A stretch of 21,142 nucleotides of DNA from a virus. Of this stretch, positions 458 through 21,099 are shown one piece after another. Both the position numbers and the translations under genes were made by a program. Below the pieces are notes generated by a model that saw nothing but the letters and a program-made list of their open reading frames with translations, had not been told where the DNA came from and made no database searches. The stretch lies in the IMG/VR virus record IMGVR_UViG_3300042907_000588, positions 1 to 21,142 of that record. The stretch is one strand, 5' to 3'. How positions within the stretch are numbered: position 1 is the stretch's first letter; each line of letters begins with the position of its first letter.

Positions 458-802
458 CTAGACCAAACCTTGCGGTCGGTCAGCTTGGCTGTTAGCCTCA
501 GATTCCGCTTCGGCCTGCTCATTCTCAAGAATGGCTTGCTCGTAGCGTTCGTCTTCCTCGCGCTGCATTTCGCGGCGGCGTTCTTCGGCCAGATATTCCG
601 CTCGTCTCTCAGCGGCCTCTTCTGCTTCGCGTTCTTCCCGCCTGCGCTCATCGGCGCGACGAGCCTCATCGAATCCGTCTTGGTAGTCGCGGGATTCGCG
701 GTCATAACCAAGGTATCGGCTTTCGTCGTAGCCATAGCGTCCATTGCGCTCGAAGTCGCGTTCGCCTTGGCGGTGGTCTGAATTGTATCCGTATCTGCTC
801 AT
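458..802 (-). CDS. Highly charged Glu/Arg-rich helical protein (114 aa)
   Basis: The ATG at 800-802 opens a 114-codon frame ending in TAG. The first 40 residues are rich in Tyr, Arg, Gly and Asp (MSRYGY, RYGYDES, LGYDRESRDYQDG). Residues about 45-105 are almost entirely Glu, Arg and Ala (RRREEREAEEAAERR) and predict one long charged helix. No enzyme domain is visible. The antisense frame looks like a membrane protein, and the frame at 436-744 looks basic; both are shadows of the repeated GAR/CGN codons. The product may be a structural or nucleic-acid-associated accessory protein, but I do not recognise it. Confidence 0.7.
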   Translation of the reverse strand: MSRYGYNSDHRQGERDFERNGRYGYDESRYLGYDRESRDYQDGFDEARRADERRREEREAEEAAERRAEYLAEERRREMQREEDERYEQAILENEQAEAESEANSQADRPQGLV

Positions 803-2672: not shown

Positions 2673-3073
2673 TGGTCACCCCCTGTCATTGCAGCCCGAT
2701 TAGCTTTGAGTAGTTCCGCATCGGGTTTAGCCTTTAGACGTAGACCGCATACAGTCGCACCGCCAGCAGGATTTCTGACTCCGTCTTGGACGTATAGCGA
2801 TACCTTCTTGCCAATCCATTTAGTAGTATCCGCTCCGAAACAAGCTGCAAGGGTTTTGCGGTTAGTTGCATTTAGAACCATCCGTTTCGGCTTGTCGTTA
2901 AATCCGACTGAATAGAATGACTTCTTTTTACCGTCCTGCATAACCTCGTCAGCGTGTTCAAATACGCCGCTAATGGTTACTTCGATTTCTCCTAGCCCAA
3001 TAAAATCCTCGCTAGCTAGAAATTTGCTAGATGTTTTCATTTGGCTAACTTTGCCTGTGAATTGCTTTTCCAT
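2669..3073 (-). CDS. Phage recombination-operon protein, possible OB-fold ssDNA-binding partner (134 aa)
   Basis: The first three residues follow an A-rich leader (TTAACAAATAATAAC). Residues about 30-120 read like one small beta-rich domain, with short strands (EIEVTISGV, KSFYSVGFN, KKVSLYVQDG) and the phrase LNATNRKTLAACFGADTTKW followed by IGKK. I recognise this NxTNxKTxxxxxGxxTxxWIGK pattern from small phage proteins encoded next to RecE/Cas4-type nucleases. Its place directly upstream of the nuclease, with an ATGA overlap, suggests they work together. An OB-like or ssDNA-binding role is inferred from position and strand pattern, not from a diagnostic motif. Confidence 0.6.
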   Translation of the reverse strand: MEKQFTGKVSQMKTSSKFLASEDFIGLGEIEVTISGVFEHADEVMQDGKKKSFYSVGFNDKPKRMVLNATNRKTLAACFGADTTKWIGKKVSLYVQDGVRNPAGGATVCGLRLKAKPDAELLKANRAAMTGGDQ

Positions 3074-3077
3074 GTTA

Positions 3078-3200
3078 TTATTTGTTAATGATTAAGATTA
3101 CTGACCATGCGATAATTCCGATAGTTACACCCGCGACCAAGGCGGATACTACTAAGAAATATAACTCTTTTCGGTCTGGTTTATTCTTCAAATTCCGCAT
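3078..3200 (-). CDS. Small single-span membrane protein (40 aa)
   Basis: The ATG at 3198-3200 lies inside the end of the gene before it, in another frame, and runs 40 codons to TAA at 3078-3080, four bases before the next ATG. A basic N-terminus (RNLKNKPDRK) precedes a continuous hydrophobic stretch, residues about 13-38 (YFLVVSALVAGVTIGIIAW...), and the protein ends INK. The charge pattern predicts N-in topology. It fills the gap between two genes. It could be a superinfection-exclusion or membrane-anchoring peptide, but no family is recognised. Confidence 0.6.
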   Translation of the reverse strand: MRNLKNKPDRKELYFLVVSALVAGVTIGIIAWSVILIINK

Positions 3201-3441
3201 CGAGTTCTTTCTGCGTCTGATCTGTTTTAATTCCTGCTCTAATGTATTCTTCATGTTCGTTTAGTTCGTTGGTTATTAGGTTTTGTAGAAAATGGCATCG
3301 GCGTAGATGTTTGACGTAACGATCTAACAGAGATTGGTTGCCGTCTCGGATTGTTACATGATTAGTTGCCCAGAATATAGCCGTGTTGTCCTTGGTGGAT
3401 CTGAATCGGCGTTGGATAACTAGTAGGTTGTTTAAGGTCAT
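3181..3441 (-). CDS. Small helical protein, first gene of the left operon (86 aa)
   Basis: I choose the ATG at 3439-3441 over the longer TTG start at 3480. The product begins MTLNNLLVIQRRF and is mostly helical, with LLDRYVKHLRRCHFLQNLI (about 38-56) and an acidic Glu-rich end. It is the first gene after the gene-free control region, so its 5' end marks the start of the recombination operon. There is no recognised domain; an HTH is not evident. It is likely an early small regulatory or accessory protein, which is inference. Confidence 0.6.
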   Translation of the reverse strand: MTLNNLLVIQRRFRSTKDNTAIFWATNHVTIRDGNQSLLDRYVKHLRRCHFLQNLITNELNEHEEYIRAGIKTDQTQKELDAEFEE

Positions 3442-3464
3442 GTCGAACGGATAGATAAAGTATA

Positions 3465-3516
3465 GATTTGAAACCCGCAAGCTCTTTTTTCAAATTAGTT
3501 AAAATAATTTCAAATC
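3465..3516. repeat. 9-bp inverted repeat GATTTGAAA / TTTCAAATC with a third half-site
   Basis: GATTTGAAA at 3465-3473 is the exact reverse complement of TTTCAAATC at 3508-3516. A third near copy, TTTCAAATT, lies between them at 3488-3496. The spacing of 20 bases between the two same-direction copies puts them on one face of the helix. It sits just upstream of the first operon gene and looks like an operator. Confidence 0.5.
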
Positions 3517-3552
3517 TGACCAAATAGTCCAAGTCGACAATATGGTTAAAAC

Positions 3553-3565
3553 ATCCATAATGGAT
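3553..3565. repeat. 13-bp perfect palindrome ATCCAT-A-ATGGAT
   Basis: Two exact 6-base arms around a single central base, in the gene-free control region. The form is typical of a dimeric repressor half-site pair. Confidence 0.5.
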
Positions 3566-3699
3566 AGTTTATCGGACGAAAACCCGTGCTATTGTATTGT
3601 AAAACGGACTAAAAACGGGTTATTTTGAATATGATAAACCAAGCAATCCGTTAAGATTTGTCACGGATGTTCAGTAAATTAACGCATCTATTCAACGTG

Positions 3700-3798
3700 T
3701 GACGTTTTGTAACGGGTTGGTTGCGTTTTATGCAACTTTCTCGCGGTTTAATACGTCACTACTGACGACATATCCGCTTAATCCGTTATAAAACGTCA
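3700..3798. repeat. 16-bp inverted repeat (15/16), arms 3700-3715 and 3783-3798
   Basis: The left arm is TGACGTTTTGTAACGG. The reverse complement of the right arm is TGACGTTTTATAACGG, one difference in 16. The arms are 67 bases apart. Two further TGACG/CGTCA cores sit between them at 3754-3758 and 3763-3767. This is the most ordered part of the control region and would suit cooperative binding with looping, or an origin. Confidence 0.6.
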
Positions 3799-3809
3799 TA
3801 TTTGGCGAC

Positions 3810-4058
3810 CTAAACGAATCGGAATATCTTAGCCTGGCGACCATTAACCGCAGCCTTACGCACGGTAATAACGCCGTCCGTTAGTAGTTGGTTCATTTTG
3901 CGATTTAACGCACTCTCGCCTAGCTTTTGACCATTACTAGCCAGTTGTTCGCTAATCTGAGCCAATGTAAATTCATCGGGCTGGATTGGTTTAGATTCCT
4001 CGCCAATGATCGAGTTAATCTTTTCCCAAATATCTAGTGTTTTAGTTGTCTTTTTCAT
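3810..4058 (-). CDS. Small winged-helix DNA-binding protein (82 aa)
   Basis: Probably a transcription regulator. Residues about 27-82 match a winged-helix outline. FTLAQISEQLASNG begins the first helices, LGESALNRKMNQLLTDGVI is the recognition-helix region, and TVRKAAVNGRQAKIFRFV is the basic beta-wing. The same layout is common in small phage wHTH proteins. Its start overlaps the phosphoesterase stop as ATGA, so it is at the end of that operon. It ends directly at the repeat-rich control region, which makes that region its best candidate target (inference). Confidence 0.7.
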   Translation of the reverse strand: MKKTTKTLDIWEKINSIIGEESKPIQPDEFTLAQISEQLASNGQKLGESALNRKMNQLLTDGVITVRKAAVNGRQAKIFRFV

Positions 4059-4777
4059 AGTATTCCGTGAGGTGAAACGATTTGACCATCCTCTTCCGTA
4101 GCGTGGTAAATACGAAACGCACCAGTTTTAGTGTTGTGTAATCCGTATGCCCAGCCCTTACGCCAGCCTAGTTTAGCTCCGTGATGATCCGCATAAGTCA
4201 TTTTGTCGATATCCGCCATAGTCGCTACGGAATGAGACGAGCCGCCGTCTAAGTGGGCTGCAACGTAATCGGTCGGGGTGTGGCAATGCCCGTAAATTGA
4301 ACTACCATACATGGCAAAATGTGCTTTAGCGTGGTTTAGACCCGTCTTGAATCCGTGCATAATGCTTAGATTGCCTATTTTAAGTGTCTTACGGACGTTC
4401 CAAGGTGTCCATTGTATCTTTTGCTTACGAAAGAACTCCTCGGTCTCATCAACCTTACAAGCTGCCAAGTCCGCCAAGGTGCGGTTGCTATGCTCTGATG
4501 CAATACGCCACAATCTATCGCAATGGTTTCCAAGGGTGAGCATACTCGGCTTAAATTGTTTTAATAGCTCGATACCCGCTTGATAATCTACTTTGATGGA
4601 ATCCGCTCTATCCTCGTTAGATGCACCCATGCGTAATGCTCTAAAATCCCATACGTCTCCAAGATGCACCCGATGTTTTGGTTTCCATTCATCCATAAAC
4701 GAATAGAACTTTTTAAGTGTTTTCTGACATACCAAATCCCCGTGGGAATCCGCCATAAATATAGATTTTTCCCACAT
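4055..4777 (-). CDS. Calcineurin-like metallophosphoesterase (240 aa)
   Basis: A binuclear-metal phosphoesterase. All the signature motifs are in order: D-x-H as Asp10-Ser-His12 (MADSHGD), GDxxD as Gly40-Asp41 to Asp44 (GDVWD), GNH at 83-85 followed by Cys where Asp or Glu is usual, a His at 141 (MHG), and GHxH at 163-166 (GHCH). The length is standard for a single-domain phage member. The substrate cannot be read from sequence: phosphodiester, nucleotide or protein phosphate are all possible. It sits 3 bases after the HExxH gene and overlaps the winged-helix gene, so the three probably form a host-takeover or regulatory set. The GNHC variant may tune metal or substrate use. Confidence 0.85.
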   Translation of the reverse strand: MWEKSIFMADSHGDLVCQKTLKKFYSFMDEWKPKHRVHLGDVWDFRALRMGASNEDRADSIKVDYQAGIELLKQFKPSMLTLGNHCDRLWRIASEHSNRTLADLAACKVDETEEFFRKQKIQWTPWNVRKTLKIGNLSIMHGFKTGLNHAKAHFAMYGSSIYGHCHTPTDYVAAHLDGGSSHSVATMADIDKMTYADHHGAKLGWRKGWAYGLHNTKTGAFRIYHATEEDGQIVSPHGIL

Positions 4778-15028: not shown

Positions 15029-15726
15029 GGCTTTTTATTGTTTATTTTATTTAATACGTTCTCGTAAAACTTAAGCGTGTTTTTACGCCCGTCTGCGATA
15101 GCTCGTTTGATCTGACTCATCCTTAAAACGTAGTTGGTTGATGCGTGTCTAGCCTTGTTTGTAGTTGTCGCTACTGGCTTAAATCCGTTAGTTGGCGGCG
15201 TAGCTGTCCCTAGGTTGGCGAATTTATGGGCGTAGCTTATGAAGTTTGAGCTAATGTTAATCCTATTCGTCCCTGTCTGGTTTCTAGCTATTTGCTGCCC
15301 AGCTCCAATCCATCCGCCTTTAGCCATGCCTAACTGCTTGGATTTGATCTCTATTGCTCTTTTAAGGTTCTCCATAGAGCATTTTTTGCGTTGATTTACG
15401 GGTAATTTAGGAACGCGCCTACCTCGTCTAATCCTATTTACATCTATCCAATCTATAATCTCCTGTGGCGTTTTTAGCGCGAATAATCCTCTAGGTTGTC
15501 TACCTTTAAGTGGGATTACGCAGTTTAAAGCATCGTTCCAAATTGGGCTTCTTTGAGCCGTATTCTTTCCGAACGGTTGAGTATATTTAGCCAACTCCCG
15601 ACAAGTCTGGACTGACCATCTGGTTACTGCTTGAGCCGATGATTCACCAAACTCTTTAGCATATCTACGAATTGATTTCTCCAGTTTTCGCTGGTCAATA
15701 GTAGCATTTACCTTGGTTACACTCAT
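15025..15726 (-). CDS. Head-tail / tail completion protein, HK97 gp10 or lambda Z-like (233 aa)
   Basis: A basic protein with an N-terminal helix set (DQRKLEKSIRRYAKEFGESS, AVTRWSVQTCRELAKYTQPF) and a Gly/Asn/Thr-rich middle with many Arg and Lys (RIRRGRRVPKLPVNQRKK). The C-terminal helix is RMSQIKRAIADGRKNTLKF. Basic, helix-rich proteins of 120-230 residues at this place are the gp10/Z group that complete the tail's head-proximal end. The length is above HK97 gp10 and near lambda Z. It is coupled by ATGA overlaps to its neighbours on both sides. Confidence 0.6.
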   Translation of the reverse strand: MSVTKVNATIDQRKLEKSIRRYAKEFGESSAQAVTRWSVQTCRELAKYTQPFGKNTAQRSPIWNDALNCVIPLKGRQPRGLFALKTPQEIIDWIDVNRIRRGRRVPKLPVNQRKKCSMENLKRAIEIKSKQLGMAKGGWIGAGQQIARNQTGTNRINISSNFISYAHKFANLGTATPPTNGFKPVATTTNKARHASTNYVLRMSQIKRAIADGRKNTLKFYENVLNKINNKKP

Positions 15727-16034
15727 CCTTTCGTATCGGTTTCTAGCCTTAAAGTCGTAAATGTTCCGCCTTTCTCAATACCTTTAATGCGGTAGTTGAT
15801 ACCACGGGCAGTAACTTTTTTCTCTAGTAGCGTTCCAGCGGGTAGGCTAGTGGTTTTCAATACAGCGGTTAGAGTCTTGGTTTTCTCATATCCAGCCCCA
15901 TCAAACTCGTTACTGTCGTTAGCCTCGTTAAATATACAACTAACCGAATTAGCTCCAATGGTTAGCGTTTCAGCCCCGATAATAGCAAAAGCCGATGTAG
16001 CTGCATTGGTCGCGAAATCTGTTAGAATAGACAT
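15723..16034 (-). CDS. Head-tail joining protein, FII-like (103 aa)
   Basis: A small beta-rich protein: helix TDFATNAATSAFAIIGA, then strands ETLTIGANSVSCIFNE, KTKTLTAVLKTTSL, KKVTARGINYRIKGIEKG and TFTTLRLETD. The pattern of an initial helix, a small insert (EANDSNEFDGAGYE) and a final RGxxYRIxxIxxxG stretch matches what I know of lambda FII-like joiner or stopper proteins. It lies just before the gp10/Z-like gene. It would seal the filled head for tail docking. Confidence 0.62.
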   Translation of the reverse strand: MSILTDFATNAATSAFAIIGAETLTIGANSVSCIFNEANDSNEFDGAGYEKTKTLTAVLKTTSLPAGTLLEKKVTARGINYRIKGIEKGGTFTTLRLETDTKG

Positions 16035-16065: not shown

Positions 16066-16641
16066 TCAAACCCCATTAGGCTCTGGTGCGGCTGTGGTCT
16101 CCGCATCGTGCCTATAGGTATGTAAGACCATCGGGATATGAAAGCTCGTCCTAGCCTGTTGCCGTGCCTGTAAAGACCATGCCTTGTCCTCGCCGTAATT
16201 GCAGTAGAGAAACTGGCAATCTTTAACCCTATCTAGCCGCCATGCACAAACGTGCCACGCATCCCTCAAGGTAATACCATTCGGAATAAAGGCATGATCG
16301 CCCTGTCCTAACTTAAAGACAACCTTGGATTCCAAGCCATTATAAATAGCCCGTTGTTCAAAGGTAATAACCTCCGCGCCCGTTTCAGTAGCTTTAAGTA
16401 ATTCCTCGATATAATTATTAGAAATATCATCGTCATCATCGACCATCGCCGCATATTCACCCTCGGCTATATCCCATAAGGCTTGACGTTTAGCCCCGAT
16501 TGAGCGTTTGCGGTTATCGCTTAAAATTAGATATTCAACTGGTAGATTTCCAATTTGATTAGCTAGTTTTTCGCTTAGTGCCTTTGATTGCTCTTCTCGT
16601 CCTGGTATTGTCGCTATTAGTATGCTTAGTTTTGGTTTCAT
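16066..16641 (-). CDS. Family 2 glycosyltransferase (191 aa)
   Basis: Transfers a sugar from a nucleotide donor to an acceptor. The ATG at 16639-16641 gives the typical GT-A start MKPKLSILIATIPGREEQ; an in-frame TTG at 16665 is unlikely. The donor region is SIGAKRQALWDIAEG (about 47-61), and the DxD metal site is a run of five Asp at 68-72 (MVDDDDDIS). A later NYGEDKAW phrase supplies the usual acidic catalytic residue of GT2. It is shorter than cellular GT2 enzymes, with no membrane anchor, so it acts in the cytoplasm. Lying beside the larger transferase and the capsid gene, it probably glycosylates a virion or host surface component. Confidence 0.82.
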   Translation of the reverse strand: MKPKLSILIATIPGREEQSKALSEKLANQIGNLPVEYLILSDNRKRSIGAKRQALWDIAEGEYAAMVDDDDDISNNYIEELLKATETGAEVITFEQRAIYNGLESKVVFKLGQGDHAFIPNGITLRDAWHVCAWRLDRVKDCQFLYCNYGEDKAWSLQARQQARTSFHIPMVLHTYRHDAETTAAPEPNGV

Positions 16642-16741
16642 CTTTTTTTCTAAATATATCGTCAAAATTGCTACCGTATGTAGCTGTATCTACTTTCCTT
16701 GGCATATCGCCTTTACTGCCGTGCGTTGTTCTATGATTCAT
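16559..16741 (-). CDS. Small ORF between the two glycosyltransferases (60 aa), overlapping the second
   Basis: The ATG at 16739-16741 overlaps the stop of the large transferase as ATGA, the junction used by most genes here. The first 33 residues (MNHRTTHGSKGDMPRKV, then SNFDDIFRKK) fill a gap of about 100 bases. The rest overlaps the GT2 start in another frame and is Thr/Lys/Arg-rich. At the seam the DNA has seven A's (AGAAAAAAAGATG). One base fewer would fuse this ORF in frame to the GT2 as ...FRKKMKPKLS. It may be a real short gene, an N-terminal extension by slippage, or a homopolymer error. Confidence 0.42.
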   Translation of the reverse strand: MNHRTTHGSKGDMPRKVDTATYGSNFDDIFRKKDETKTKHTNSDNTRTRRAIKGTKRKTS

Positions 16742-18969
16742 GGTTTTGCTTCTGGTTCTTTAATCCATACCCGACCAATTCCAGCTACTTTGTATTTATG
16801 CTTCTCGGAATGTTCGTGGATAGCTTGCTCTACTTCGTGCCAAGGGTAATCGTGACCCGCCCAAATTCCTTTAGGCTTAACTTTGCTATACCAAACGTTA
16901 ATATCCTTTTTAGCTGATTCGTAATCGTGAGCCGCATCGATATAGCAACCATCAATACTATTATCTTCAAATAAAGATGCAGCCTCGGCACTATCGGATT
17001 CAATAATCTGTATCATTTCCGATACACCCGCAGCTTCGATATTTTGCTTGAATTTCCAAAGTATTGAACCGCCGTGGTCATCTACTACCTGTAAATGCGT
17101 GGGTTGATTTTGCTCGCCCTTCCAAGTATCAACGCAATACAGTTGCACATTTTTACCTAGATTTTGCAGTTCTTGGGCTAGGCATATAATTGACTGACCC
17201 ATCCAGCTACCTACCTCTACGAACTTACCGCCGTCTGGTATTACTTTAGCGATAGATCGGTAGAAGTGCTTATAGTCACACCATCCGACAATATCTGAAC
17301 TGGTTTTAATCCCAGCCCGTAGACGTTCCAATGCCTTTGCCCCCCTCTCGTAATGCTCGTTTGCATTGCTTCTAGCGTAAGTATTATCCATCTCAGCCTT
17401 GCCGAATACTGGGTGTTCGTGTTCAAATTTAATTGAATTACGAGCATCAATAACTACGCCATCTCGGAAGGCACATTCTGAAAACCAATTATCCGAATAC
17501 ATCGAGAAGAACTCAGGATGGAACATATAGCCTTGGTCTTTATACCGTTGTCTGGTCATAATCGCCATACATAGCAAATCATCCGTTCTATGCCCATCAG
17601 AGATAGCTAATACCGATGGTTTAGATGTATCACCAATAGCATCAAGAATAGCGTCATCCCATCCTTTAAAGGGCTTCCAATCGTCACTAAGTTGCACTAA
17701 GACTTCTCCTTCTGTAAGTGATGCCCCATAGTTCCAAGCACCTACGCAACCATTGGATTCAGCCATGAAAGCCGATGGAAACCGCGATAAAATTACGGAT
17801 TCCTCATCATCCAAATCAGCTACAAATATATGCTCGATTCTCTCTGGATGGTTAGCCGTTCTAATCCAGTTCTGCCTAGCTTTAACCGCTTGAGCCGCTC
17901 TACCCCTAGTCGCATGGATTAATGATATTATAGGCTTTCCAGTTTTAATAGCCGCATTACGGCGTAAAATATCAGCCAAATAAACATCACCATATGCTCT
18001 TAGACATTGCCAGTAGAGATCATCACGCCAAAACTCGTAAAACATCTTACGATGATTCCAACACGGGTTATCTGGATACTTGCAAGCCATCATCTTTTCG
18101 GCGTAGGCTAGGGCGTTTTTAGTATTATCACAAGCCAAAGACAATGCGGCTAACTCGTAAAGCGGTTCTGCCCTACCTGGATCTTCAGTAAATGCCTGTA
18201 AATAGAAATTAGCCTTAGATCCGTAGTCATCCGATTTAGCCGCCAAGGTCATTAGCATTTCAAACCGTTCTGGAGTATTGCTTTCTTTGTCAGATAAAAA
18301 GGATTTAACCGCATCAATAGACCTAGGATCATCACGTCTAATTAACTCTTGAGCGTAGTAAAACTTATGCCCGACCGACCTTTCTTTCTCTGGAACTGTT
18401 TCCAGAATACGCAGGTTTCTATTTTGCGTGCATCCTTTGTGATCTTCTGGCTTGTGGATAACCTTAAACTGGGTCGTTGTCGCCGCTGGGTTAGGCATAC
18501 GATCAATACATACTAGGTTTTCGTGGATAGGGTTAATCCATTTAAACTTACCGCTATTCCGCCAGAACCGCTCCCTAAAGTTAGAAACCACGCCTTGTTC
18601 ACTAACCACATAGGGACATGATACCATCCAGATATCGTCTGGAACTTTAACCAGTAGCTCTTTAATCTTATCCGCCCCATCGCAGATATCATCCATATCA
18701 GCCCACATAGACCAATCGCCTGTTGCTAGGCTTAAAGCTACGTTCCGTGCTGCTGAGAAATCATCTACATGATTCCATTCTTTTTTAGCATTAAAATACT
18801 CAGACGTAATACAACCTCTGGATTTAGCTATTTCAATAGTCTTATCTGGTTCTTGATCGCCAATGGCACGAACCATAACAATCTCATCCACATACGGCTG
18901 GAAGGCATCTAGGAATCTAACGATATCCTTTTCGCAATTCCCTGTTATACAGGTTAAACTTAATTTCAT
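16738..18969 (-). CDS. Multidomain glycosyltransferase-TPR-glycosyltransferase-methyltransferase fusion (743 aa)
   Basis: Four parts are visible. Residues 1 to about 185 are a GT2 domain of the SunS/TPR-glycosyltransferase type, with ACTG-like start SLTCITGNCE, DDFSAARNVAL at 69-79 and the DxD-type site ADMDD at 90-94. Residues about 205-330 are TPR-like helices (ERFEMLMTLAAKSDDYG, NALAYAEKMMA). Residues about 341-540 are a second GT-A domain (ISLIHATRGRAAQA; QLSDDW at 426-431). Residues about 557-730 are a SAM-dependent methyltransferase of class I (FVEVGSWMGQS 583-593, CVDTW 612-616, DGCYIDAAHDYE 673-684). It lies alone behind its own terminator and palindrome. It probably builds and methylates a sugar on the capsid or host surface; substrate is unknown. 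Confidence 0.8.
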   Translation of the reverse strand: MKLSLTCITGNCEKDIVRFLDAFQPYVDEIVMVRAIGDQEPDKTIEIAKSRGCITSEYFNAKKEWNHVDDFSAARNVALSLATGDWSMWADMDDICDGADKIKELLVKVPDDIWMVSCPYVVSEQGVVSNFRERFWRNSGKFKWINPIHENLVCIDRMPNPAATTTQFKVIHKPEDHKGCTQNRNLRILETVPEKERSVGHKFYYAQELIRRDDPRSIDAVKSFLSDKESNTPERFEMLMTLAAKSDDYGSKANFYLQAFTEDPGRAEPLYELAALSLACDNTKNALAYAEKMMACKYPDNPCWNHRKMFYEFWRDDLYWQCLRAYGDVYLADILRRNAAIKTGKPIISLIHATRGRAAQAVKARQNWIRTANHPERIEHIFVADLDDEESVILSRFPSAFMAESNGCVGAWNYGASLTEGEVLVQLSDDWKPFKGWDDAILDAIGDTSKPSVLAISDGHRTDDLLCMAIMTRQRYKDQGYMFHPEFFSMYSDNWFSECAFRDGVVIDARNSIKFEHEHPVFGKAEMDNTYARSNANEHYERGAKALERLRAGIKTSSDIVGWCDYKHFYRSIAKVIPDGGKFVEVGSWMGQSIICLAQELQNLGKNVQLYCVDTWKGEQNQPTHLQVVDDHGGSILWKFKQNIEAAGVSEMIQIIESDSAEAASLFEDNSIDGCYIDAAHDYESAKKDINVWYSKVKPKGIWAGHDYPWHEVEQAIHEHSEKHKYKVAGIGRVWIKEPEAKP

Positions 18970-19069: not shown

Positions 19070-19978
19070 TTAGTCAGCTTTGCGGAGGATTCCGAGTCCG
19101 AGAGTAAGAGCTTGGGTAAATCCAAACAAGCACTCAAAGGATGCGTAATGGCGACCTTTACCTGGGTTGAAGTGGCGGCGATAGGTGAAACCAAGACCAG
19201 TTTCGTCATCAACCACGGTATCAACTGCAAGGTATTGCGAGTTGTCTTGTGGCAACAGCTGGCGAATGGCGACTGCGATTGCGTCAGGATGTGCAAGGAA
19301 ACCAATGAGGGAAAGAGTTCCGCCAAGTGCGAGAGCGTTTGTCTCATAGACATCCATACCAAGAAGGCGAGGAATGCGACCTTCACGGATGGCTTCATTG
19401 CCGCCGTATTGGAAGGCTTGTGAGATATTGCTGTCACCGAGAAGCGAAGCGAACAATTCGCTAGATGCGATAAGGCTAAGGTTTTCGCCATTTACTTTGC
19501 GATCAACCATAGTTTTACGAGCATTACGAAGTTGGGTAAGACCAGTGCTACCGATGGAAACCGCAGTTGCAGCGGCTGCACCAAAGTTAGCGATAGAAAC
19601 CAACGAGAAGATGTTTTCGATACACTTACGAGCCAAAGCACGTCCTTGTTGGCGAGCGAATACGGAGATTTCAGCAGAACCACTATTGGCGAACTGAATA
19701 TCAGTAATATCGACACCTACGATCTGGTGTTGGTCAAGGTTAAGGCTGATAGTGTTGAGCGTTCCGCCTTCGGTTTCGTATGGGAAGCCGCTGTTGTTGG
19801 CGTATGCGAATGTGGTCGTGCTAAGTGCATCGGCACGAGGGATAGCGATAACATCACCTTTACGGCGAGCTTCACTTGAATAAGAACGGGTAAATGCGTT
19901 CAGCGGTGCGAGACCAGCGGTAAAGGCATTGAGAGCCTCTTGAACGAAAATTTTGTCATTAGTTGCGATTGTGGACAT
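19070..19978 (-). CDS. Major capsid protein (302 aa)
   Basis: Located directly after the prohead protease and followed by a strong terminator, as expected for the most abundant virion protein. The N-terminus (MSTIATNDKIFVQEALNAF) is helical. The middle has HK97-fold-type elements: an N-arm/E-loop-like stretch with charged and Gly residues (EGGTLNTISLNLDQHQIV), a long helix (VFARQQGRALARKCIENIF), the A-domain region (LLGMDVYETNALALGG) and a terminal beta part (GLGFTYRRHFNPGKGRHY). The length suits a capsid without a cleaved N-terminal delta domain, consistent with a separate scaffold on the protease gene. The leader CTAACAAAATAATACC has no Shine-Dalgarno. Confidence 0.82.
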   Translation of the reverse strand: MSTIATNDKIFVQEALNAFTAGLAPLNAFTRSYSSEARRKGDVIAIPRADALSTTTFAYANNSGFPYETEGGTLNTISLNLDQHQIVGVDITDIQFANSGSAEISVFARQQGRALARKCIENIFSLVSIANFGAAAATAVSIGSTGLTQLRNARKTMVDRKVNGENLSLIASSELFASLLGDSNISQAFQYGGNEAIREGRIPRLLGMDVYETNALALGGTLSLIGFLAHPDAIAVAIRQLLPQDNSQYLAVDTVVDDETGLGFTYRRHFNPGKGRHYASFECLFGFTQALTLGLGILRKAD

Positions 19979-19998: not shown

Positions 19999-20448
19999 TT
20001 ATTTACGTTTTGATTGTTCGGAAAGGATAGCTTTTCTGTTAGCTTTATAAAATGCGGTTGCCTCAGAACCTTTGAGGGATTCAAATTGCTCCAAGATAGA
20101 TCTTTGCTCGCCGCCGTTTTCGATTGGAAGCGGGTCTGATTGACCGATACCAGCTAGCATTTCGATTGCTTTATCGCTGGCGGATTCTGCCTCAACAACT
20201 ACTGCTGCCTTGGTTTCTTCCAACTCAGCCTTAACTGTTTCCAGTTCGGATTGTGCGGTTGCTAGTTCAGCGGTCAAGTTTTCAATTTTGACGGTGTTCT
20301 CTATAAGAGTCTGATCTACTTTTTTTGCGGTTTCAAGTTTAGATTGAAGGTCTGCAATCTCAGCACGAAGAGAATCGTTTTCTTGAATTGCGTTTTCGAG
20401 ATTCGCTACTTGATCGTTATTAGGGAACAGCTTTGTTAAAATGCTCAT
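19999..20448 (-). CDS. Possible nested scaffold protein from an internal start (149 aa)
   Basis: An in-frame ATG at residue 218 of the protease (20446-20448) begins MSILTKLFPNNDQVANLENA, just where the protease domain ends and the coiled coil begins. This would make a separate scaffold, as Nu3 in lambda C. An AAGGGA lies about 13 bases upstream, farther than ideal. This is inference from domain layout. Confidence 0.35.
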   Translation of the reverse strand: MSILTKLFPNNDQVANLENAIQENDSLRAEIADLQSKLETAKKVDQTLIENTVKIENLTAELATAQSELETVKAELEETKAAVVVEAESASDKAIEMLAGIGQSDPLPIENGGEQRSILEQFESLKGSEATAFYKANRKAILSEQSKRK

Positions 20449-21099
20449 GGGTGATTTATTCCCTTTTTCGTCTACAATGTCAAGCACGGCTGTTAGGTTG
20501 TTAGATACGTTTAGTTTTTTCTCTGCTATTTCATCGGCAAATCCATTATCTACGGTTGTTTTAGCGTCCATCCAAGTTTCTTTTTTCATCATAGCTCGGA
20601 TATCCTCAACTGGCTTTTTAGTGCGTGAGGAATAGATATTAGCGATATCTGAACTGATCGAATCTAGAAGGTCAGCTTGTTTCCGCATCTGGTCGGCATT
20701 GCCAGAGAACCCGCTGGATGCGTCATGGATCATCATGCGACCATGTGGAACTATTGATACTTTGTTACACGCCATACAGATGACGCTAGCCATCGATGCA
20801 GCCATGCCAGTAATAGTTGCGTTGACGACAACACCACGATCTTGCAGGCTTTTGATTTCTTGATAAACTGTATAGCCATCAAAAACGCTACCGCCTGGGG
20901 AGTTGATTTCGATATCTAAAACATCAACGGCGTTTTCCGCTACGTTCATGATTTCGCCAAAATCCGCACCATCCGCGACTGCCTTAGCTCCGAATAGTTT
21001 GCTAATCTCATCAATCATTCGACCAATGGATTCACGGGTTACAACTTCATTTAGTTTAACCTTGCCTTGCTTATTTTCTACTTGAATCGTTTTCATCAT
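19999..21099 (-). CDS. Prohead protease (ClpP/S14-like) fused to a coiled-coil scaffold region (366 aa)
   Basis: A head-maturation serine protease. Residues about 55-195 are ClpP-like: EINSPGGSVFDGY at 64-76, nucleophile Ser102 in GMAASMAS, His125 in MMIHDAS, and an acidic residue near 174-178 (KETWMDA) where ClpP has Asp, followed by GFADEI. Residues about 228-310 are a long coiled coil (ENDSLRAEIADLQSKLETAKK, ELETVKAELEETKA). The C-terminus (SILEQFESLKGSEATAFYK) is helical. This protease plus coiled-coil layout is that of the lambda C/Nu3 and S14-type phage genes, where the tail part is scaffold. ATG occurs twice at 21099 and 21096; either could be used. Confidence 0.85.
   Translation of the reverse strand: MMKTIQVENKQGKVKLNEVVTRESIGRMIDEISKLFGAKAVADGADFGEIMNVAENAVDVLDIEINSPGGSVFDGYTVYQEIKSLQDRGVVVNATITGMAASMASVICMACNKVSIVPHGRMMIHDASSGFSGNADQMRKQADLLDSISSDIANIYSSRTKKPVEDIRAMMKKETWMDAKTTVDNGFADEIAEKKLNVSNNLTAVLDIVDEKGNKSPMSILTKLFPNNDQVANLENAIQENDSLRAEIADLQSKLETAKKVDQTLIENTVKIENLTAELATAQSELETVKAELEETKAAVVVEAESASDKAIEMLAGIGQSDPLPIENGGEQRSILEQFESLKGSEATAFYKANRKAILSEQSKRK

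Follow-up and report, generated by a model that had tools for sequence, protein, structure and literature searches.

On an uncultured tailed-phage genome fragment (IMG/VR record IMGVR_UViG_3300042907_000588, positions 1–21,142, analysed at its full 21,142 nucleotides and termed here the window), the gene adjoining the capsid gene encodes one polypeptide that joins two glycosyltransferase (GT) domains, TPR-like helices and a methyltransferase, and possession of this fusion enzyme is characteristic of a single capsid clade. The fusion is probably a virion-glycan assembly enzyme that would draw on host sugar nucleotides and use the major capsid protein (MCP) as its acceptor. Beyond the window, there is perhaps an even chance that a large, uncultured group of tailed phages, probably infecting Verrucomicrobiota, makes glycosylated capsids by means of a self-contained enzyme that docks on the capsid protein through its TPR part, primes and extends the glycan with its two GTs and adds an exchangeable methyl cap, and that is inherited as a unit with the capsid gene. 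Few phages are documented to have glycosylated virions; in this case the trait would be fixed across a whole clade, together with a single capsid type.

Location and domain anatomy of the fusion gene

The 743-residue open reading frame (ORF) of the original prediction is present and lies on the minus strand, a detail absent from that prediction, and the motifs it quoted were all found (ADMDD, residues 90–94; SDDW, 428–431; FVEVGSWMG, 583–591; IDAAHDYE, 677–684). The head genes are transcribed in the order listed, with the protease gene immediately upstream of the MCP gene and the neck and tail genes following the attachment-like gene (tail names assigned by position):

19999–21099, minus strand: head maturation protease (ClpP-like) with a scaffold-like C-terminus (Pfam CLP_protease, 5e-31; phrog_94, 2e-59)
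19070–19978, minus strand: MCP, 302 aa, HK97-type (phrog_283, 7e-22; PDB capsid proteins by profile, 6.5e-10)
16738–18969, minus strand: GT-TPR-GT-methyltransferase fusion, ATG at 18969, 743 aa plus stop
18430–18969, minus strand: fusion domain 1 (residues 1–180), GT-A, SunS/GmaR-like (PF00535; DxDD at 91–94, HE at 149–150)
17935–18429, minus strand: fusion domain 2 (residues 181–345), TPR-like helical repeat (designed-TPR profile matches; helices in the model)
17305–17934, minus strand: fusion domain 3 (residues 346–555), second GT-A, with SDDW (phrog_14945, 6e-19; model topology)
16741–17292, minus strand: fusion domain 4 (residues 560–743), class I methyltransferase, Methyltransf_24 (Pfam, 4e-23; fold matches)
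16066–16641, minus strand: small stand-alone GT, about 191 aa, VDDDDD motif (phrog_8858, 1.4e-27)
15723–16034, minus strand: head-tail attachment-like neck gene (PF05354, 0.0017)

The placement of the fusion between capsid and neck genes holds to the extent that the MCP gene lies on one side and the attachment-like gene on the other, but the small GT gene, previously missed, intervenes. The small GT starts with an ATG at 16641, its longest ORF running from a TTG at 16665. A 60-aa ORF at 16559–16741 that overlaps it in another frame, without a family match, is probably not a gene. Elsewhere in the window, ORFs at 436–744 and 458–802 (minus strand), one of them Arg/Glu-rich, overlap in different frames, and probably just one of them is a real gene.

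The four-part architecture proposed from the sequence (GT-A, TPR helices, GT-A, class I methyltransferase) was upheld, with all four domains recovered both by AlphaFold2 and by Pfam, PHROGs, NCBIfam and PDB-sequence profile searches that concur in their order. The model, folded from a 33-member alignment (pLDDT 90, pTM 0.78), has alternating strands and helices at residues 3–172 and from 348 to about 550, helical repeats at 182–342 and a Rossmann-type domain at 567–737; PHROGs matched a GT at 1–329 (7e-26), a second GT at 348–545 (6e-19) and a methyltransferase at 566–717 (5e-27). Domain 1 matched Glycos_transf_2 (PF00535, 5e-8) above the family cut-off (33.5 versus 23.3 bits), and the profile search of PDB sequences returned GmaR (6e-22) and SunS (4e-16) for the first half and designed TPR proteins (3e-16) at about residues 250–314. 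Domain 3 had no Pfam match of its own in the fusion protein, and its assignment as GT-A is based on the alternating strand-helix topology of the model, phrog_14945 and the conserved DD429–430. The domain 1 DMDD is kept as DxDD in 32/32 relatives, and the HE motif and the acidic motifs of the two GTs are each present in at least 31 of the 32. Domain 4 scored far above the Methyltransf_24 cut-off (PF13578, 82.8 versus 26.3 bits), with an EVGxxxGxS SAM motif, and below that of the TylF macrocin O-methyltransferases (PF05711, 17.1 versus 23 bits); the SAM-type motifs are largely kept in the relatives bearing Methyltransf_24. Searched by fold, the N-terminal half ranked ThuS (1.7e-14) and SunS (3e-14) first and the C-terminal domain returned MeT1 (1.6e-9), MycF (4.5e-8) and SpnH (2e-7), while two-GT synthases (heparosan synthase 2 and chondroitin polymerase) gave long Foldseek matches of low TM.

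A chance or misassembled fusion was ruled out by full-length relatives (43–98% identity) in many independent contigs, and likewise by dN/dS values of 0.04–0.12 in every one of the four domains, calculated against the 98% identical relative (L001). Purifying selection is acting on all four parts.

Linkage to the capsid protein

A metagenome search for the same fusion, the check proposed originally, found it recurring in many independent contigs, among them IMG/VR contigs and phage-like contigs from Verrucomicrobiota and Armatimonadota MAG bins, and a split version occurs on a Betaproteobacteria MAG contig; matches in the genome scan came via the broader alignment (A2), with none from the narrow alignment (A1). 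Among loci found with capsid queries, a GT-TPR gene lay 3′ of the MCP gene, usually within 400 bp, in 52/52 distinct neighbourhoods that extended 600 bp or more past the MCP gene on its 3′ side; the broader MCP scan covered the best 80 of 396 MCP relatives, with more distant members outside the count. By contrast, such a gene was present in 0/33 loci of the sister MCP clade, which includes the Verrucomicrobia phage P8625, with a 24% identical MCP (31 of the loci reach the same 600-bp minimum; 22 distinct MCP sequences in the comparison). It is because of this difference that the enzyme is assigned to one capsid clade, and the enzyme query gave the same picture of its distribution as the capsid query. 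The enzyme is additionally found next to different capsid-like genes in L044 and L152, which were identified as such from their position and not from a profile match.

The unit of capsid, fusion and small GT recurs widely, the small GT following the fusion in most relatives. Downstream, the neck genes are of several dissimilar types, sometimes in loci with closely similar MCPs, while the unit stays intact, and in one locus (L007) the tail-tube and tape-measure genes differ as well. This behaviour bears on whether a different virion component (tail tube, neck or fibre) is the protein that the fusion glycosylates, adjacency to the MCP reflecting late-operon placement only. Many phage GTs are located near tail genes, TPR proteins can bind any partner, and in one group of loci (L056, L057, L061, L071, L088) the GT-GT gene is reversed among tail-type genes with no recognised MCP adjacent; yet a unit that remains with the MCP as its neighbours are exchanged, and whose presence or absence tracks the MCP clade, makes another virion protein an unlikely target.

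Extra genes occur between MCP and fusion in some relatives (L036, 2641–3414; L003, 4817–5909), one of them GIY-YIG endonuclease-like by eye, and therefore this site also takes insertions. Several relatives encode a small ATP-dependent DNA-ligase-like protein among the neck genes (L003, 9210–9761; L018, 9905–10408; L124, 10501–11022), a call made by eye from a KYDGIRA-type motif.

Pairwise MCP distances correlated strongly with those of the first GT (r = 0.94), TPR (r = 0.98) and second GT (r = 0.87) domains, to a lesser degree with the small GT (r = 0.65) and the methyltransferase (r = 0.44, 16 methyltransferase-bearing loci), and weakly with the adjacent-gene control, the immediately upstream protease (r = 0.28). 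Inside two MCP clades, the GT domains, TPR and small GT gave r values of 0.70–0.95 (0.73–0.95 without the small GT), compared to 0.20 and 0.57 for the protease. A stepwise fall in co-divergence from TPR to methyltransferase was considered and is weakened by these within-clade values, where the GT parts track the MCP similarly and the higher value of the TPR over the first GT is absent. The correlations as a whole are the pattern that co-evolution of acceptor and enzyme predicts. Adjacency and part of the co-divergence would follow from tight linkage as well, but the low value of the protease control speaks against linkage as the sole cause.

The original prediction had left the target as a virion protein or a host glycan, and the former accounts much better for the strict linkage to one capsid clade. 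Modification of a glycan on the host cell surface, such as to prevent superinfection or alter a receptor, draws on the fact that clusters for surface polysaccharides often contain GT2-type enzymes and methyltransferases of the FkbM and CmcI-like kinds, and on domain 3 having close stand-alone homologues (43–49% identical) on Verrucomicrobia contigs (L155–L162). It is nonetheless improbable, as co-divergence with an MCP is not what one would expect of receptor-modifying genes, nor is their absence from the entire sister clade, and the homologues of the first half act on proteins. Some of the stand-alone domain 3 homologues lie beside other glycan-type genes.

Proposed assembly of a capsid glycan

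With the MCP as the probable acceptor, the fusion would operate as a cytoplasmic, soluble capsid-glycan assembly enzyme. In the order of steps that we infer, the TPR helices would serve as the acceptor-recognition module and bind the MCP encoded next door, after which the first GT-A domain (SunS/GmaR-type) would transfer a sugar from a nucleotide-sugar of the host onto a side chain of the capsid protein, most probably by O-linkage to a Ser/Thr and possibly in the flexible E-loop. The second GT-A domain, the small GT or both would then extend the chain, and the C-terminal methyltransferase would O-methylate the outer sugar and block further extension. The benefit to the phage may lie in hiding or altering the virion surface. 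This logic of attachment, extension and capping, put forward in the original prediction, gains backing from protein-GT homologues of the first half and sugar O-methyltransferase homologues of the last domain.

In the MCP model (pLDDT 76, from an alignment without phage P8625), confidence was lowest at the flexible E-loop, residues 51–71. Ser/Thr occupies positions 55 and 56 in every GT-linked MCP and position 63 in 95%, while the GT-less clade has mostly V, D and G at these positions. Ser/Thr 55, 56 and 63 are offered as a guess at the acceptor sites, clade-specific residues being expected from ancestry alone as well. S-glycosylation of the MCP in the manner of SunS appears unlikely, because the MCP alignment has no nearly invariant Cys.

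The nearest cultured relative by MCP infects a Verrucomicrobia strain and the domain 3 homologues point to the same group, such that Verrucomicrobiota are the likely hosts. The sugar donors probably come from the host, an assumption made because two nucleotide-sugar synthesis families (PF00483, PF16363) were not found in ten contigs of 30–39 kb.

Two further explanations concern the chemistry and the role of the fusion. Modification of phage DNA (glucosylated bases together with methylation) would account for the DNA methyltransferase label of phrog_2675 and a weak match of the small GT to an HMC glucosyltransferase family (0.0099), but it is highly improbable and was set aside, given a Methyltransf_24/TylF-like methyltransferase whose top fold matches are sugar O-methyltransferases, the location in a head operon and no hydroxymethylase recognised on reading the listed proteins of the window. 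There is likewise only a very slim chance that the TPR part chiefly regulates transcription or assembly with glycosylation secondary, as might be drawn from GmaR, which joins GT and anti-repressor activity (PMC9638930), since a second GT and a methyltransferase here replace the linker and antirepressor domains of GmaR and the active-site motifs are conserved.

Known systems and the proposed methyl cap

The closest parallel for a capsid-glycan assembly enzyme of this kind is A064R of the chlorovirus PBCV-1 (638 aa), in which two rhamnosyltransferase domains and an O-methyltransferase finish the capsid glycan; antigenic mutants exist for each domain and the structure of domain 1 is solved (PMC9614988). 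Like the fusion, A064R is virus-encoded and places two GTs and a C-terminal methyltransferase in one polypeptide; its target, as is proposed for the fusion, is the MCP, whose glycan it extends and O-methylates (PMC9614988). It differs in belonging to a giant virus of algae whose capsid protein is a different one, in extending an N-glycan as opposed to the protein priming proposed here, and in having no TPR domain described. The likeness is best taken as analogy, because no homology was detected for the solved domain, which was absent from the PDB sequence matches at E ≤ 1 (domain 1 only). The combination had been presented as not known before, which stands for phages as far as was found, though the same GT-GT-methyltransferase logic exists in A064R; no description of a phage GT-GT-methyltransferase fusion was found in the papers examined, and one may exist elsewhere. 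If the proposed function is correct, bacterial viruses would possess in this fusion their own, independent equivalent of A064R, protein priming included.

SunS and ThuS act on Cys of glycocins. They are the best fold matches and share with the fusion a GT-A domain followed by a helical region and, as proposed for the fusion, act on a peptide or protein side chain, but are without a second GT or methyltransferase. The SunS NCBIfam model (TIGR04195) matched 25/33 relatives and the fusion itself (1.3e-9), far below the equivalog cut-off (37.4 versus 350 bits), and on this sequence evidence the fusion is placed as a relative of the SunS peptide S-glycosyltransferases and not as a member. GmaR of Listeria, also GT-A plus TPR, adds GlcNAc to flagellin, a self-assembling surface protein that its TPR is proposed to recognise (PMC9638930); unlike the fusion, it ends in an antirepressor domain and has no second GT or methyltransferase. 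Mycobacteriophages (Che8 and relatives) encode GTs and carry glycans covalently on the MCP (cited in PMC11256854), and one GT of Che8 resembles the fusion distantly in fold. The mycobacteriophage GTs are separate genes, placed near the 3′ genome end in Maravista, and no GT-GT-methyltransferase fusion was found in their descriptions. For a Rhodococcus phage, capsid glycosylation has been inferred from separate GT and methyltransferase genes (PMC13313380). MeT1, which blocks a mannoside 1-OH (PMC9883506), MycF and SpnH share the fold of the C-terminal domain, but are stand-alone enzymes that act on polysaccharide or antibiotic sugars.

One gene predicts acceptor, chain and cap, and an enzyme that primes a protein, extends and caps the glycan would be a useful glycoengineering tool. 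The natural, cassette-free sister clade, including the cultured phage P8625, is available for comparison. The original claim that all steps fall to a single enzyme was too strong, considering the second GT gene in most relatives, the absence of a methyltransferase from about half and its encoding as a separate gene in some. By locus, the C-terminus was Methyltransf_24 in 37, FkbM in two (L008 and L139, in different MCP clades) and neither in 45, with a separate methyltransferase gene in L082. The methyl cap is optional and exchangeable, because the methyltransferase may be fused Methyltransf_24, fused FkbM, separate or absent, which agrees with a step that comes late and acts at the outer end, and relatives that do without the methyltransferase indicate that capping can be dispensed with. 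Its exchange between types suggests that phages differ at the outer end of their putative capsid glycans, a pattern to be expected were some environmental factor to recognise the surface of the virion. Beside another capsid-like gene (L152), a separate Methyltransf_24 gene follows the GT-GT gene; this phage-like contig also encodes a 601-aa protein (2717–4519) that begins with a sulfotransferase-like SGIPRSGST motif, identified by eye.
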